Shown here piece by piece: positions 22,770 through 31,206 of a stretch of DNA of 64,000 bases; the first letter of the stretch is position 1, and every line of letters starts with the position of its first letter. The position numbers were made by a program, and so were the translations under genes. The notes beneath the pieces are model-generated. The model did no database searches, had not been told where the DNA came from, and saw only the letters and a program-made list of their open reading frames with translations. The stretch is taken from contig NW_023501040.1 of assembly GCF_014066305.1 (NCBI RefSeq), positions 558,001-622,000 on the forward strand, written 5' to 3'. Source of the DNA: Letharia columbiana (taxonomy: Eukaryota; Ascomycota; Lecanoromycetes; Lecanorales; Parmeliaceae).

Positions 22770-25700
22770 ATGTGTGGCATCCTAGCTATGCTCCATGCGG
22801 AGCCAGAAGGCAATGCTTGTGCGGCAGAACTTCAGTGAGCCGACAGATTTCTTCTCAAGACCTCAGCAGCACTCATACCTAGCAGCGAGGCTCTGTACTA
22901 TTTGCAGCATCGGGGCCAAGACGCTTGTGGTACCACATACTTCCAATATTGAACGAACGAGTAATAAGAGACATGACAGGCATTTCTACTTGTGCTACGG
23001 GAGGAAGGATCTTTCAGTGCAAAGGTACATCGTCCTTGAAAGACTTCTTCTTTCGGGGCCTCCATTGGAAGCTGTTAGACATCTCTTTGACGCCTTTGCC
23101 CCTGAGACTGAACCATAAGCCCCTTGCTTGCTTGAAAGAGCAGTGCTGACGAGAGAAATTATCGTACAGGAAACGGCCTAGCCTCGAAAGTGTACGTCTT
23201 TTTCGAGTCTCTACTTCCCTTCTAAGGTTATGTTGGGAGTCGTGAGACATGTTCTGGCAGCCTTGACTCCCGGAATCTGGCTTACGACTTGGTTTCTCTT
23301 CTGAAAGCCGCTATGCTGATGAGCGGAATAAATGTGTAGATTTCGCGATGGAGCACGAGTACAAGATCTCCCGGGGTACATGGGTGAGTGCGCCTTCGGC
23401 CACGTAAATTTGAAAGCTGAAGATAACGCAGGCCTCGGACACCTTCGCTACCCCACTGCAGGCACGTCAGCCAACGCTGAAGCACAACCTTTCTTTGTGA
23501 ACTCCCCTGTAGGTCTTTTCCGAGATTCTACTTGCTTTCTGAGATCAGTTGGGATATGCCTTGGGAGTCTCTGCTCCCAACACCTAGCTTGTGACTCGCT
23601 TTCCTTTCTCGAAGAGGCTATGCTGATGAGCGAACAAGTATGGCATTAGCGCAGCTCATAATGGCAACCTCATCAACGCAGCTGAGTTGAGAGACTTCCT
23701 CGACCGAGAAGCACATCGGCATGTGAGTCATATCCGAAAGATTCTTGTCATTTCCGTACTCTCCGCATAAGGGGAACCGATCCTAGCAGAGAAAAAGATG
23801 CTAAACTTCGATTTTGGTAAAGATTAATACCGAATCTGACTCGTACGTCTTTTCCGACTTTCTACTTGCCTTTGGAGGTCTTATCGTGACTCGCGAGACA
23901 TGTCTGGAGAGTCCCTGCTACCGAGATCTGGCTTGCGGCTCCCTCTCCTTTCTCAGAAGGGCAATGCTGACGAGCGAATGCACGTAGGGAATTACTGCTC
24001 AATGTATTCGCGTCAGAATTAAATACCACTGGTAAGGCGAGGATCAATTGGTAAGCCTGCCCGAAAAGTTTATCTGTTTCCGTGCCTCTGAGGAACACAA
24101 TGTCCAGAGCAAACACCATATAAAGATTTTTAGGATGGAGATTAAAAACATCTTTAAGCTGGAAACGCTATAATAGTGTAATACTGACTTCTGTATGCTA
24201 GTGATGATATATTCGCCGCACTGTACGTCTTTCCTCCGAAAATCCCCACCCTACAACGTTCCCTCCTCAGTTGAGGAGCACGCATGGACCCTAGCCTTTG
24301 AGCCTCCGAGAGATATCTCTGCACCCTTATTTTCAGGAGCGAAGCTGACGAAGGCAATTATTGCAGTGGGCGTATGTATGGTACGTCTTCCTCTTTCAGG
24401 CTTTCTTGAGACTCACTTGTCTTGAATGTTATGGCTGCGGAGCAACTCACACCTATTGAGGAATCACGCTGACACACAACCAGAACGTTTGGAAGGAGGG
24501 TTTGCATGCACTGCCATGCTTGCTGGTCTGTCGTTCATCGGGACAATGAGCGCGACTAACAAGAGCTAGGCTTCGGTATTATTGGCTTTCGCGACAGTTA
24601 TGGCATCAGACCTCTTGGTACGTAGGACCTGGTCTGAACACTATCATTTCTGCCAATCGATATCACATATAATTGCTGACTCGGTGACATGTAGTGCTTG
24701 GCTCGAGGCTGGCTTCCTCAGGACAAGGGAGAGATTACATGCTTTCTTCAGAGTCCGTAGCGCTTCAACAACTGGGGTACCTCAAATCGAACATTCAGGA
24801 CATAAAGCCAGGCCAAGCCGTCATAATACAGAAAGGAGCAGAGCCAGTCTTTGCCTCCGTTCAACCTCAGAAAAGATATTGCCCGGACATCTGTGAGCTT
24901 ACTCTCCCAAAACATTCCTCGTCTTTTTAGCATCTTTGAATTGGTTGGAAGAGCTTGCTCTAACCTGCTCAGTTGAATTCTGCTATTTTGCTAGGCCTGA
25001 CAGCGTTATTGATGCTATGAGCGTCCATCAGAGTCGAGAAAACATGGGATATAAGCTCGCCCATCGAATCGCGAAGGTCTTGTCTCCGTCACAGCTGGAA
25101 GAGATTGATGTAGTCATGCCTATCCCGGACACAAGTAACACCACAGCACCTTGTGTGGCCGCACGTCTCAACAAACCGTATCGCCAAGGCTTCGTCAAGA
25201 ATCGCTACGTTTTTCGAACATTTATCATGGGTGGCCAGAAAGCAAGGCAAAAGGGTGTCAGGAGGAAGATGAACGCCATGGAGCAGCAGTTTGTGGGGAA
25301 GAATGTGCTACTAGTCGACGACAGCATTGTGAGGGGTACTACGTCGCGAGAGATTGTACTAATGGCAAAGGAGGCTGGAGCAAAGAAGGTCTTTTTCGCC
25401 TCTGCTGCACCCCGTATCCGCCACCCTCACATATACGGCATAGATCTGTCGTCGCCTTCTGAACTGATAGCGCACAAGAGGACCGTGGATGAAATTGCTA
25501 CACATATCGGAGCAGAGAAAGTCATTTTCCAAGAGCTCGATGATCTTATCGATGCATGCCGTCAAGCTGCACCTTCCGATCACACCGCCAGGGAGACCCA
25601 GGACTTCGAGGTCGGCGTTTTCAACGGCCAGTATGTAACGCCTGTCCCAGATGGCTACTTTGTTCATCTCGAGCGCGTAAGAGGTGAGACCAAGAAGATC

Positions 25701-25970
25701 AAGATGATAGAAAACGCCCGTGGCGCAGTCGCTAATGGCTCAGCCGACCCTGAAGAGATAATGATGGCTACAAATGGAGCAGAGGTGAAGGATGATGGTA
25801 GTGTCGTTGCTTCGGGGCCTTTGGATGCTGGTAACATGCCTGTTGTCAATGGCAATCATTCACACCTGCCGAACGGGAAGCGGAAACGAACATTAGAAGA
25901 ACACGAGAAGCCGAAGCGAACGATGGACATTTCAATGCATAATCAAGATGATTTTGAAGTGGAGGATTGA
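22770..25970 (+). CDS. ADE4: amidophosphoribosyltransferase, 15 exons
   Basis: First committed step of purine synthesis: glutamine plus PRPP to phosphoribosylamine, cytosolic. Exons: 22770-22834, 22886-22929, 22980-23024, 23170-23191, 23340-23383, 23432-23508, 23639-23722, 23823-23842, 23988-24050, 24202-24222, 24367-24380, 24484-24525, 24570-24617, 24695-24892, 24973-25970. They sum to 1785 nt (594 aa) with phase kept throughout. The glutaminase domain starts MCGILAML with the nucleophile Cys2 and contains [25 protein letters not shown] and [10 protein letters not shown]. The transferase domain has the PRPP loop [13 protein letters not shown]. The C-terminal tail (about 90 residues) is hydrophilic with KRKRT. 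Several exons are only 14-22 nt, and several introns are homologous to each other. Exon 7 uses an AAG acceptor. Confidence 0.93.
23025..23169 (+). repeat. ADE4 intron 3, possible diverged introner-like element
   Basis: 145 bp intron. Its 3' part (gcagtgctgacgaga followed by aaatt) resembles the matching part of intron 8, and its length fits the group. The 5' part is only weakly similar. Confidence 0.45.
23192..23339 (+). repeat. ADE4 intron 4, introner-like element copy
   Basis: 148 bp intron starting gtacgtctttttcgagtctc and containing gagacatgttctgg, aatctggctta and gctatgctgatgagcgga in the same order as introns 6 and 8. gggagtc and gactccc inside it can pair to form a hairpin. Confidence 0.8.
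23509..23638 (+). repeat. ADE4 intron 6, introner-like element copy
   Basis: 130 bp intron starting gtaggtcttttccgag, with gggagtctctgctccc (a hairpin), tagcttgtgactcgctttcc and gctatgctgatgagcgaa. It aligns along nearly its whole length with intron 8. Confidence 0.85.
23843..23987 (+). repeat. ADE4 intron 8, introner-like element copy
   Basis: 145 bp intron starting gtacgtcttttccgac, with ttctacttgcct, gagacatgtctgg, ctggcttgcggctc, cctttctcagaag and atgctgacgagcgaa. It shares these blocks in order with introns 4 and 6. Confidence 0.85.
24223..24366 (+). repeat. ADE4 intron 10, possible diverged introner-like element
   Basis: 144 bp intron starting gtacgtctttcc and ending with a gagcgaagctgacga branch region. 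Both ends resemble the clear copies; the middle does not. Intron 11 (24381-24483) also starts gtacgtcttcc. Confidence 0.4.
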
Positions 25971-30084: not shown

Positions 30085-31206
30085 CTATCCATCGAGAGTG
30101 CAGCCATGAGCGGCCTGTACCCAACCGGTCAGGCGGTTGGCAATGTCAGAGGAGTAGCAACGGGTCGCGCCGGGTGCCCCAAGATCTCCATCTGAGGCCA
30201 ATGAGCCAGCATTGTAGATCCTGGCTGCCTTATAAAAGGCCGAAACGTCGCTGGCACCAGACTCGTTGATACACTGCGCAAGACCATCGCCACTGGCTGT
30301 GCCAGCAGAACCATCTCGGATCATCTGGGTGATGGTGCTGGTGGGGCATGGATTCTGAACATCACCGTTGTCGTTGCAAGTGGCAGCGCCGTCGTGATCT
30401 TGCATGAGACCCGGGTTGCGGACACCGTAATTGGTCGTCGGGGCACGAACACAGCCTCCAGACTCTTGCATCACTACAGCAAGGATGAAGCGATGGTCCA
30501 CCTCTGTCTCCATCGCAACTTGCTGGAGCGCGTTGTAGATCGCGCCGACTTCGGGTCCGGAGTCATCGGACCTGATGCCAATTTCGAAGTCAGCATGTCT
30601 CTTTAATACGGCAACAAGATTTGCGAGATGTTTAATGAAAATAACATTCGGTGGAAAATGTTGTTTGAACTCCGAGTCCTGTCTTGCCACGCAAACCGCA
30701 GTACTAATTACGAGGGACTCACTCCGAAAATTGGTCGCAAGAACTGAACATCTCGACCTTGTTGTTGTTGAACCTTTCTCTTTATCAGCTTGACGCAAGA
30801 ACAGCACAAATGGTTCCATACATGTCTTCAAAAGAGATCCATGCGCTTTTGGCGGGCCAGCCAGCGCTAGTGGTACCATCTCCGCTATAAAAGTTATAGG
30901 CGTCCTTGCCAGGCTCAACGCCATCATCGTTGACAATGGAAGTAACTGCGAGCTTGCTGTTGGTGACCTTCCCGCCAGTTGCATCAACATGGACACCTTT
31001 GATTGTTTGGCTGGGCTGGAAGTTGCCGCCTTTGTTGCCGAAGAACAGCGTTCCAGTCGGTGCTGGAACCGCAGAGGTAGCATCAGGGGGGTATGGGCTA
31101 GCAGTGACAACTGCGGCCCCCAAAACGGCAATGAGGGTCTATGATCAATTTAGCATTGCCCTGGGTACGTTGCGCTTGTCCGTGCTCTTACGTTCTTGCA
31201 AAGCAT
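30085..31206 (-). CDS. secreted lysozyme-like (transglycosylase-fold) protein, 289 aa
   Basis: Exons 31192-31206, 30822-31138, 30723-30773 and 30085-30571 total 870 nt in phase. The first exon codes for only five residues. A signal peptide follows from the splice: MLCKNTLIAVLGAAVVTASP. The core has LFFGNKGGNFQPSQ, KGVHVDA, FEDMFNNNK (rebuilt across intron 2), VDHRFILAVVMQESGG, TNYGVRNPGLMQDHDG and AARIYNAGS. In this fungal extracellular family the Glu in MQES matches the catalytic Glu of lytic transglycosylase/goose-lysozyme folds. Muramidase or related activity against bacterial or other wall glycans is inferred. The 151 bp intron 30572-30722 is long for this genome. Confidence 0.85.

Follow-up and report, generated by a model that had tools for sequence, protein, structure and literature searches.

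Introns 4, 6 and 8 of the Letharia columbiana ADE4 gene belong to a genome-wide introner-like family and appear to have been copied within the gene

Introner-like elements and the ADE4 locus

Fungal introner-like elements (ILEs) were reportedly described by van der Burgt in 2012, in Dothideomycetes. The Dothideomycetes ILEs belong to another fungal class than the family described here, and are in several respects comparable to it: both consist of many related spliceosomal introns at new exon positions, both are longer than ordinary fungal introns, and in some genes several copies are present. According to the account of Collemare 2015 (PMC4457414), ILEs occupy positions that are intronless in other species. 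Their insertion is described as seamless or without target-site duplications (TSDs) in PMC8469720 and PMC9860276. The site preference AG/GY cited for ILEs in PMC8469720 differs from the present family, where AG precedes the intron in only 8 of the 113 copies compared.

The symmetrical sister stwintrons and cropped sister introns of Hypoxylaceae/Xylariaceae (Fekete 2021, PMC8469720; Fekete 2025, PMC12403724) are a second comparable system. As described there, and as found here, inverted-repeat symmetry is strongest in young copies and has decayed in older ones, and insertion is seamless, without site bias (one exception is reported there) and without TSDs. However, those elements are described as nested twin introns or their derivatives with the near-terminal repeat GUAUAAAAAC, whereas the introns of the present family are single and canonical, and the 3' arm of their near-terminal repeat overlaps the branch region. 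The likeness is read as convergence, since the near-terminal repeat given in PMC12403724 has a different sequence. The structure of a [D1,2] stwintron, with a second intron nested in the donor, was not found in the present family: removal of one GT..AG intron already yields Pfam domains that span the junctions and the conserved ADE4 motifs.

Across eukaryotes, introners are likewise repeat introns from which many genes have acquired new introns (Gozashti 2022, PMC9860276). The ascomycete families of that survey are described as lacking terminal inverted repeats (TIRs) and TSDs; the founder consensus found here is TIR-like and still without TSDs. For Oikopleura dioica, related introns within one gene are reported, as here, and reverse splicing was suggested, but that case amounts to four near-identical pairs in a set of about 75,000 introns (PMC3879977), whereas ADE4 has three old copies and a genome-wide family behind them. 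Lichen fungi are known for spliceosomal introns in rDNA (work cited in PMC6652019), which are a different matter from introners; searches of an open-access library found no report of introners in lichen fungi or Lecanoromycetes.

The locus lies in the 64,000-nucleotide stretch of DNA analysed here (the window). Its relevant features are as follows, with phases taken from the spliced ADE4 model and branch regions placed by eye.

22770..25970, + strand: ADE4 (amidophosphoribosyltransferase, PurF), host of family copies; 14 introns, none after about 24973; stop at 25970
23025..23169, + strand: intron 3 (phase 1), a decayed fourth member of the family, matched at E 3e-6 by a model of introns 4, 6 and 8
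23192..23339, + strand: intron 4, introner-like copy of 148 nt in phase 2, with donor GTACGT and a CTGAT branch region near 23316-23320
23509..23638, + strand: intron 6, introner-like copy of 130 nt in phase 0, with donor GTAGGT and a CTGAT branch region near 23623-23627
23843..23987, + strand: intron 8, introner-like copy of 145 nt in phase 2, with donor GTACGT and a CTGAC branch region near 23967-23971

After removal of the 14 introns, the last junction being placed by eye, the ADE4 model encodes 595 amino acids, aligns over its length with homologues and scores 386 bits with TIGR01134 purF (cut-off 350). In the alignment, the protein has 74% and 79% identity to the two homologues nearest to it. 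Among named homologues, that of Psora testacea comes closest (75%), with Varicellaria and further lichen fungi next; Psora testacea and Varicellaria are both Lecanoromycetes, so that the host too is most likely a lecanoromycete. The initial annotation had named Dothideomycetes as the class from which introner-like elements are known. In the homologue alignment, the junctions of introns 3, 4, 6 and 8 are contained in conserved gap-free stretches (for example CKGNG, KVFRDG, NSPYGI and TESDSE). The introns of the gene (22770-25970) also show a strong 5' bias: all 14 lie within its first 2.2 kb, and its last 1 kb is intronless. Rfam and tRNA scans of the whole 64-kb window gave no matches.

The initial annotation had regarded introns 4, 6 and 8 as copies of one sequence. 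Its coordinates for the three introns are correct, and alignment against shuffled sequence bears this out over nearly their whole length. Local identity is 68% over 140 columns for introns 4 and 6, 71% over 146 for introns 4 and 8, and 73% over 137 for introns 6 and 8 (65-72% when measured over whole lengths). The alignment scores of 136-151 lie far above the best of 1000 dinucleotide shuffles per pair (81-85; z 13.6-16.5), and chance similarity was rejected on this comparison, 85 being the highest score reached by any shuffle. In each of the three introns the donor GT is the start of the repeat; intron 6 lacks about 10 nt in the middle of the intron as compared to introns 4 and 8. It was also claimed that the other introns of the gene show no match. 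This does not hold for intron 3, which is a family member and, among the 14 ADE4 introns, also matches the profile of subfamily C described below (11.9 bits, E 8e-5), while intron 10 gives a borderline partial match to a profile from its gene-mates (9.1 bits, E 4e-4). Introns 1 and 14, whose boundaries were placed slightly wrong (the acceptor of intron 1 adds one residue to the protein), are not family members.

Genome-wide relatives of the ADE4 introns

Pattern searches covered the genome of 52.2 Mb in 161 contigs. The branch-region pattern GCAATRCTGACTCYGAAAT was found at 326 places, against one for its reversed control, and other family patterns exceeded their backward-read controls as well (275 against 11, 126 against 21, and 40 against 2 for a pattern of subfamily B). 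A profile of introns 4, 6 and 8 matched two introns in locus L025, a gene read by eye as a short-chain dehydrogenase, with E-values of 3e-8 and 2e-4. The family profiles gave no matches on the reversed sequence of a genome sample. Introns 4, 6 and 8 are therefore part of a genome-wide introner-like family, with relatives present as introns of unrelated genes in hundreds of places, and the introner-like nature ascribed to them at the outset is borne out. The first two ADE4-specific patterns had suggested a family confined to ADE4; the L025 matches rule this out, and confinement holds only for the ADE4 clade discussed below. A DNA search of the same genome with intron 4 returned intron 4 itself only, by a method too insensitive for 70% identity. 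The group with the mid-block TCGCGAGACATGTCTTAGGAG, considered for a time as a transposon outside genes, turned out to be subfamily B on the other strand.

For comparison of the copies, 100 short stretches around pattern places were taken together with the window and the loci found earlier. Of 118 profile matches, four without clear ends and one with a wrong donor (L081) were dropped, and the four automatic matches in the window were replaced by the hand-set ADE4 introns. The resulting 113 copies comprise 65 of subfamily A, 20 of subfamily B, 24 of subfamily C and the four ADE4 introns; the labels were given by a simple rule, and several A and C labels are misplaced in the tree. Intron 8 is the trio member most like the other subfamilies, with the top ADE4 score for the A, B and C profiles. 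The branch pattern is carried by 20 of 35 copies found with the 5' pattern, by which 325 places scale to about 570 copies. The true number may be higher, because only five of 16 copies found with the mid pattern carry it. Three copies in twenty 10 kb stretches of contigs 1-4 correspond to near 800 genome-wide, with a wide error.

Identity between copies in different genes reaches 88-90% at best when one pair is left aside. In this pair, L093:99-244 and L095:62-207 (contigs C33 and C91), the copies are 97% identical and the 8-base exon flanks match on both sides, so that it probably represents a duplicated gene which took its introner along. Within the window, a weak, nearly full-length match to subfamily C was observed at 30574-30731 on the - strand (30 bits, E 8e-8); it lies near an apparent intron GTGAGTCCC..GGCATCAG and is perhaps a strongly decayed family member.

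The family copies have canonical GT..AG ends and a CTGAC-type branch region. To examine coding sequence across their junctions, ten of 34 spliced segments were selected by their length and by how many junctions they contain. In seven of these, Pfam domains cross the junctions (PNGaseA and its C-terminal domain, CN_hydrolase, LCAT, Sugar_tr, DUF7704, AcetylCoA_hyd_C and Ribonuc_L-PSP), with 14 of 20 junctions located inside matches and the copies in splicing orientation in all seven; the other three chosen segments gave no Pfam match. Open frames were obtained for 64 of 74 spliced as against 10 of 74 unspliced junctions, which is a weak test, as the frame was also open in 101 of 148 controls with a shifted frame and in 42 of 74 antisense ones. 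Judged from predicted coding sequence, the copies are introns whose removal would restore the reading frame, and which are presumably spliced.

Relationships of the ADE4 introns

In a tree built without the long rows of intron 3 and L010, introns 4, 6 and 8 form a clade with support of 100/99. All nine alternative pairings tried, with three of the best outside matches, were rejected by AU tests (p 0.0003-0.0105, uncorrected). A profile made from any two of the three introns gives the third a score of 72.2-81.0 bits and every other copy at most 42.2. The ADE4 introns also share a changed branch flank, GAYGAGCGAA, where other subfamilies have GACTCCGAAA; this change breaks the outer stem. This branch signature was found at 46 places in the genome, against 23 for the control. 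With at most two mismatches it occurs at four places, three of which are ADE4 introns 8, 3 and 6, and intron 4 is among the 42 places with three mismatches. Of the 46 places, 42 lie outside ADE4. In the 20 of these that were retrieved, no ADE4-type intron is present; four belong to A or C, and another matches the family weakly. The trio is a private clade, not found outside ADE4 within the reach of these searches, in which patterns would miss outside copies as diverged from the trio as its members are from each other.

The position of intron 3 is less clear. When intron 3 and L010 are included in the tree, the four ADE4 introns group with 100/97 and the trio alone with 86/35. Intron 3 was at first assigned to the ADE4 clade because of the 100/97 grouping. 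This was withdrawn, as intron 3 ranks 68th for the trio profile (the three training rows counted) and a tree with intron 3 beside L093/L095 is as likely by the AU test (p 0.51).

The private clade and the two-intron profiles support the local multiplication of introns 4, 6 and 8 proposed in the initial annotation. The proposal that this multiplication was recent is not supported: the trio is 65-72% identical, compared to 88-90% for the best copies in different genes elsewhere, and the ADE4 set therefore looks like an older cohort. As judged from the sequences compared, ADE4 is probably a case of copying within one gene that is old rather than recent.

It was considered whether a once-active ADE4-type subfamily had instead inserted three separate times from outside, its other copies having been lost or having decayed beyond the reach of the searches. 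The age of the ADE4 copies is consistent with this, and so is the frequent clustering of different lineages in the same gene. Among the first 100 listed of the 326 branch places, nine same-strand pairs and one opposite-strand pair lie within 1.5 kb, compared to 0.15-0.54 same-strand pairs expected, which indicates that some genes take several independent insertions. But these other clustered genes mostly hold different lineages, and three members of one private lineage in ADE4 are unlike the rest; nor was any ADE4-type copy found elsewhere within search reach. None of the 21 same-gene pairs in other multi-copy genes are nearest neighbours, the best rank being 5 (the two copies of one pair, L112/L113, are separated by about 3 kb and perhaps belong to different genes). 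In 40 directed profile comparisons, a gene-mate ranked first once (L101c to L101b), and two comparisons gave no match. We regard three separate insertions as unlikely, though to be taken seriously.

Several of the multi-copy genes are of interest in themselves. A PNGaseA-like gene, L091 (C49:147300-148480), carries three copies, one each of A, B and C. At L096:73-415 on the - strand, an A and a C copy are split by an exon of only 48 nt. The CN_hydrolase gene L101 (C34:290520-291350), with three copies (A, C, C), is the only other gene with a hint that gene-mates are nearest kin, through the comparison of L101c to L101b.

A private clade in one gene would also be expected if independent insertions into ADE4 had later been homogenised by gene conversion between the introns. 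At 65-72% identity, however, no near-identical patch is visible by eye and the similarity spans the introns from the donor to the branch region, and we consider this explanation improbable.

Hairpin founders and the route of copying

Consensus sequences and structures were derived from 64 copies of A (L045 being left out for its length), 20 of B and 24 of C. All three consensuses fold as hairpins over most of the intron, with MFE values of -58.1 (A), -47.8 (B) and -64.0 (C) and z-scores of -8.1, -6.3 and -8.3; none of 300 shuffles was as low. The consensus termini are inverted repeats, TTTCGGAGTC and GACTCCGAAA in A, and with these near-terminal arms paired the branch region comes to lie at the stem base, close to the donor. 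Such a position may help splicing or reverse splicing. Exact near-terminal runs of eight or more are present in four of 65 A, one of 20 B and nine of 24 C copies.

In single copies, the pairing kept is close to that expected from independent decay of the two arms (0.784 against 0.780 for A, 0.859 against 0.855 for B, 0.801 against 0.792 for C). When the stem was split into outer, middle and inner parts, the largest excess of pairing was 0.739 against 0.699, in the middle stem of C. As single copies keep no more pairs than independent decay would leave, the symmetry is assigned to the founders. RNAalifold recovered little common structure from 40 A and 22 C copies (5 and 17 pairs). Symmetry against the own reverse complement exceeds a z of 3 in 38 of 65 A, 16 of 20 B and 20 of 24 C copies, and rises with closeness to the consensus in A (rho 0.43, p 4e-4) and in C (0.48, p 0.017); the trend in B was not significant (0.29, p 0.22). 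The structure appears to have characterised the founders that were copied and not to have been kept afterwards, decaying as if neutral.

For the ADE4 copies, none of the four family introns and none of nine other introns of the gene has a symmetry z over 3, and the whole-intron folds of introns 4, 6 and 8 are not significantly better than those of shuffles (z -1.2, -0.95 and 0.39). An ADE4 consensus, filled by hand, does fold better than shuffles (z -3.7). RNAalifold on the alignment of the three introns (columns 49-70/75-96) predicts one further feature:

23891..23938, + strand: inner hairpin of intron 8, arms at about 23891-23912 and 23917-23938

Of the symmetrical stem, this hairpin is what can still be recognised in the ADE4 copies. 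Four of its pairs show two-sided changes among the three sequences, but the covariation term is unfavourable (+1.89).

Inverted repeats at the consensus termini, as in A, would also be expected of a MITE-like element moving by DNA transposition, whose TIRs happened to hold the splice sites, and most introners outside the ascomycetes are described as showing at least one DNA-transposon signature (PMC9860276). Two MITE features were looked for; TIRs are present in the consensuses, while TSDs are not. Over the 113 copies, the flanks match the element ends, and each other, as often as is expected from re-pairing unrelated copies, and no exon-site motif was found, the base before the intron being G in 40, C in 27, T in 26 and A in 20. 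The uniform splicing orientation in the seven Pfam-matched segments also stands against such an element, and this origin seems very improbable. Tandem duplication of an exon-intron segment of ADE4, suggested by the closeness of the copies, was rejected as contradicted by the flanking exons, which encode different parts of one conserved protein, while the repeat starts at the donor, the phases differ (2, 0, 2) and the introns have genome-wide relatives.

The explanation that we find reasonably likely is that of an introner-like family which arose from near-complementary founders and spread by reverse splicing, with one insertion in ADE4 re-copied inside the gene. The founders would be introns of about 147-155 nt whose nearly complementary halves form a hairpin over most of their length. 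The excised intron RNA would, most likely, enter another transcript by reverse splicing, or else coding-strand DNA that transcription has exposed, and could be fixed through reverse transcription or repair. Reverse splicing would leave no TSD, and would give an insertion in the sense direction that is a working intron at once. The symmetry of the founder probably aids copying and would then decay neutrally. The ADE4 insertion would most likely have been re-copied at least twice in the same gene.

A counterpoint to copying within the gene is that none of the four ADE4 copies passes the symmetry test. If symmetry were needed for copying, copying of the trio should have failed, unless the symmetry was lost later, is not needed, or the trio was copied by a different route. 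We put forward only tentatively that an introner may multiply inside its own gene by reverse splicing into transcripts of the same locus, giving a private series (introns 4, 6 and 8, perhaps 3) for which full-length symmetry is not needed, while spread between genes uses hairpin founders. If true, two modes of intron birth, in-gene and between-gene, would be present in one genome.

The origin of new spliceosomal introns is a long-standing question, and few lineages show the process in action. With hundreds of copies, several subfamilies and hairpin founders that decay as if unselected, the present family provides natural data on which parts are needed for copying and which for splicing. The family adds to the known fungal introner-like elements, and the local case of ADE4 is unusual; with the trio, in-gene copying can be checked on a concrete example. 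This lichen-type fungus carries a real and sizeable introner-like family, and one of its genes appears to have bred its own introns.
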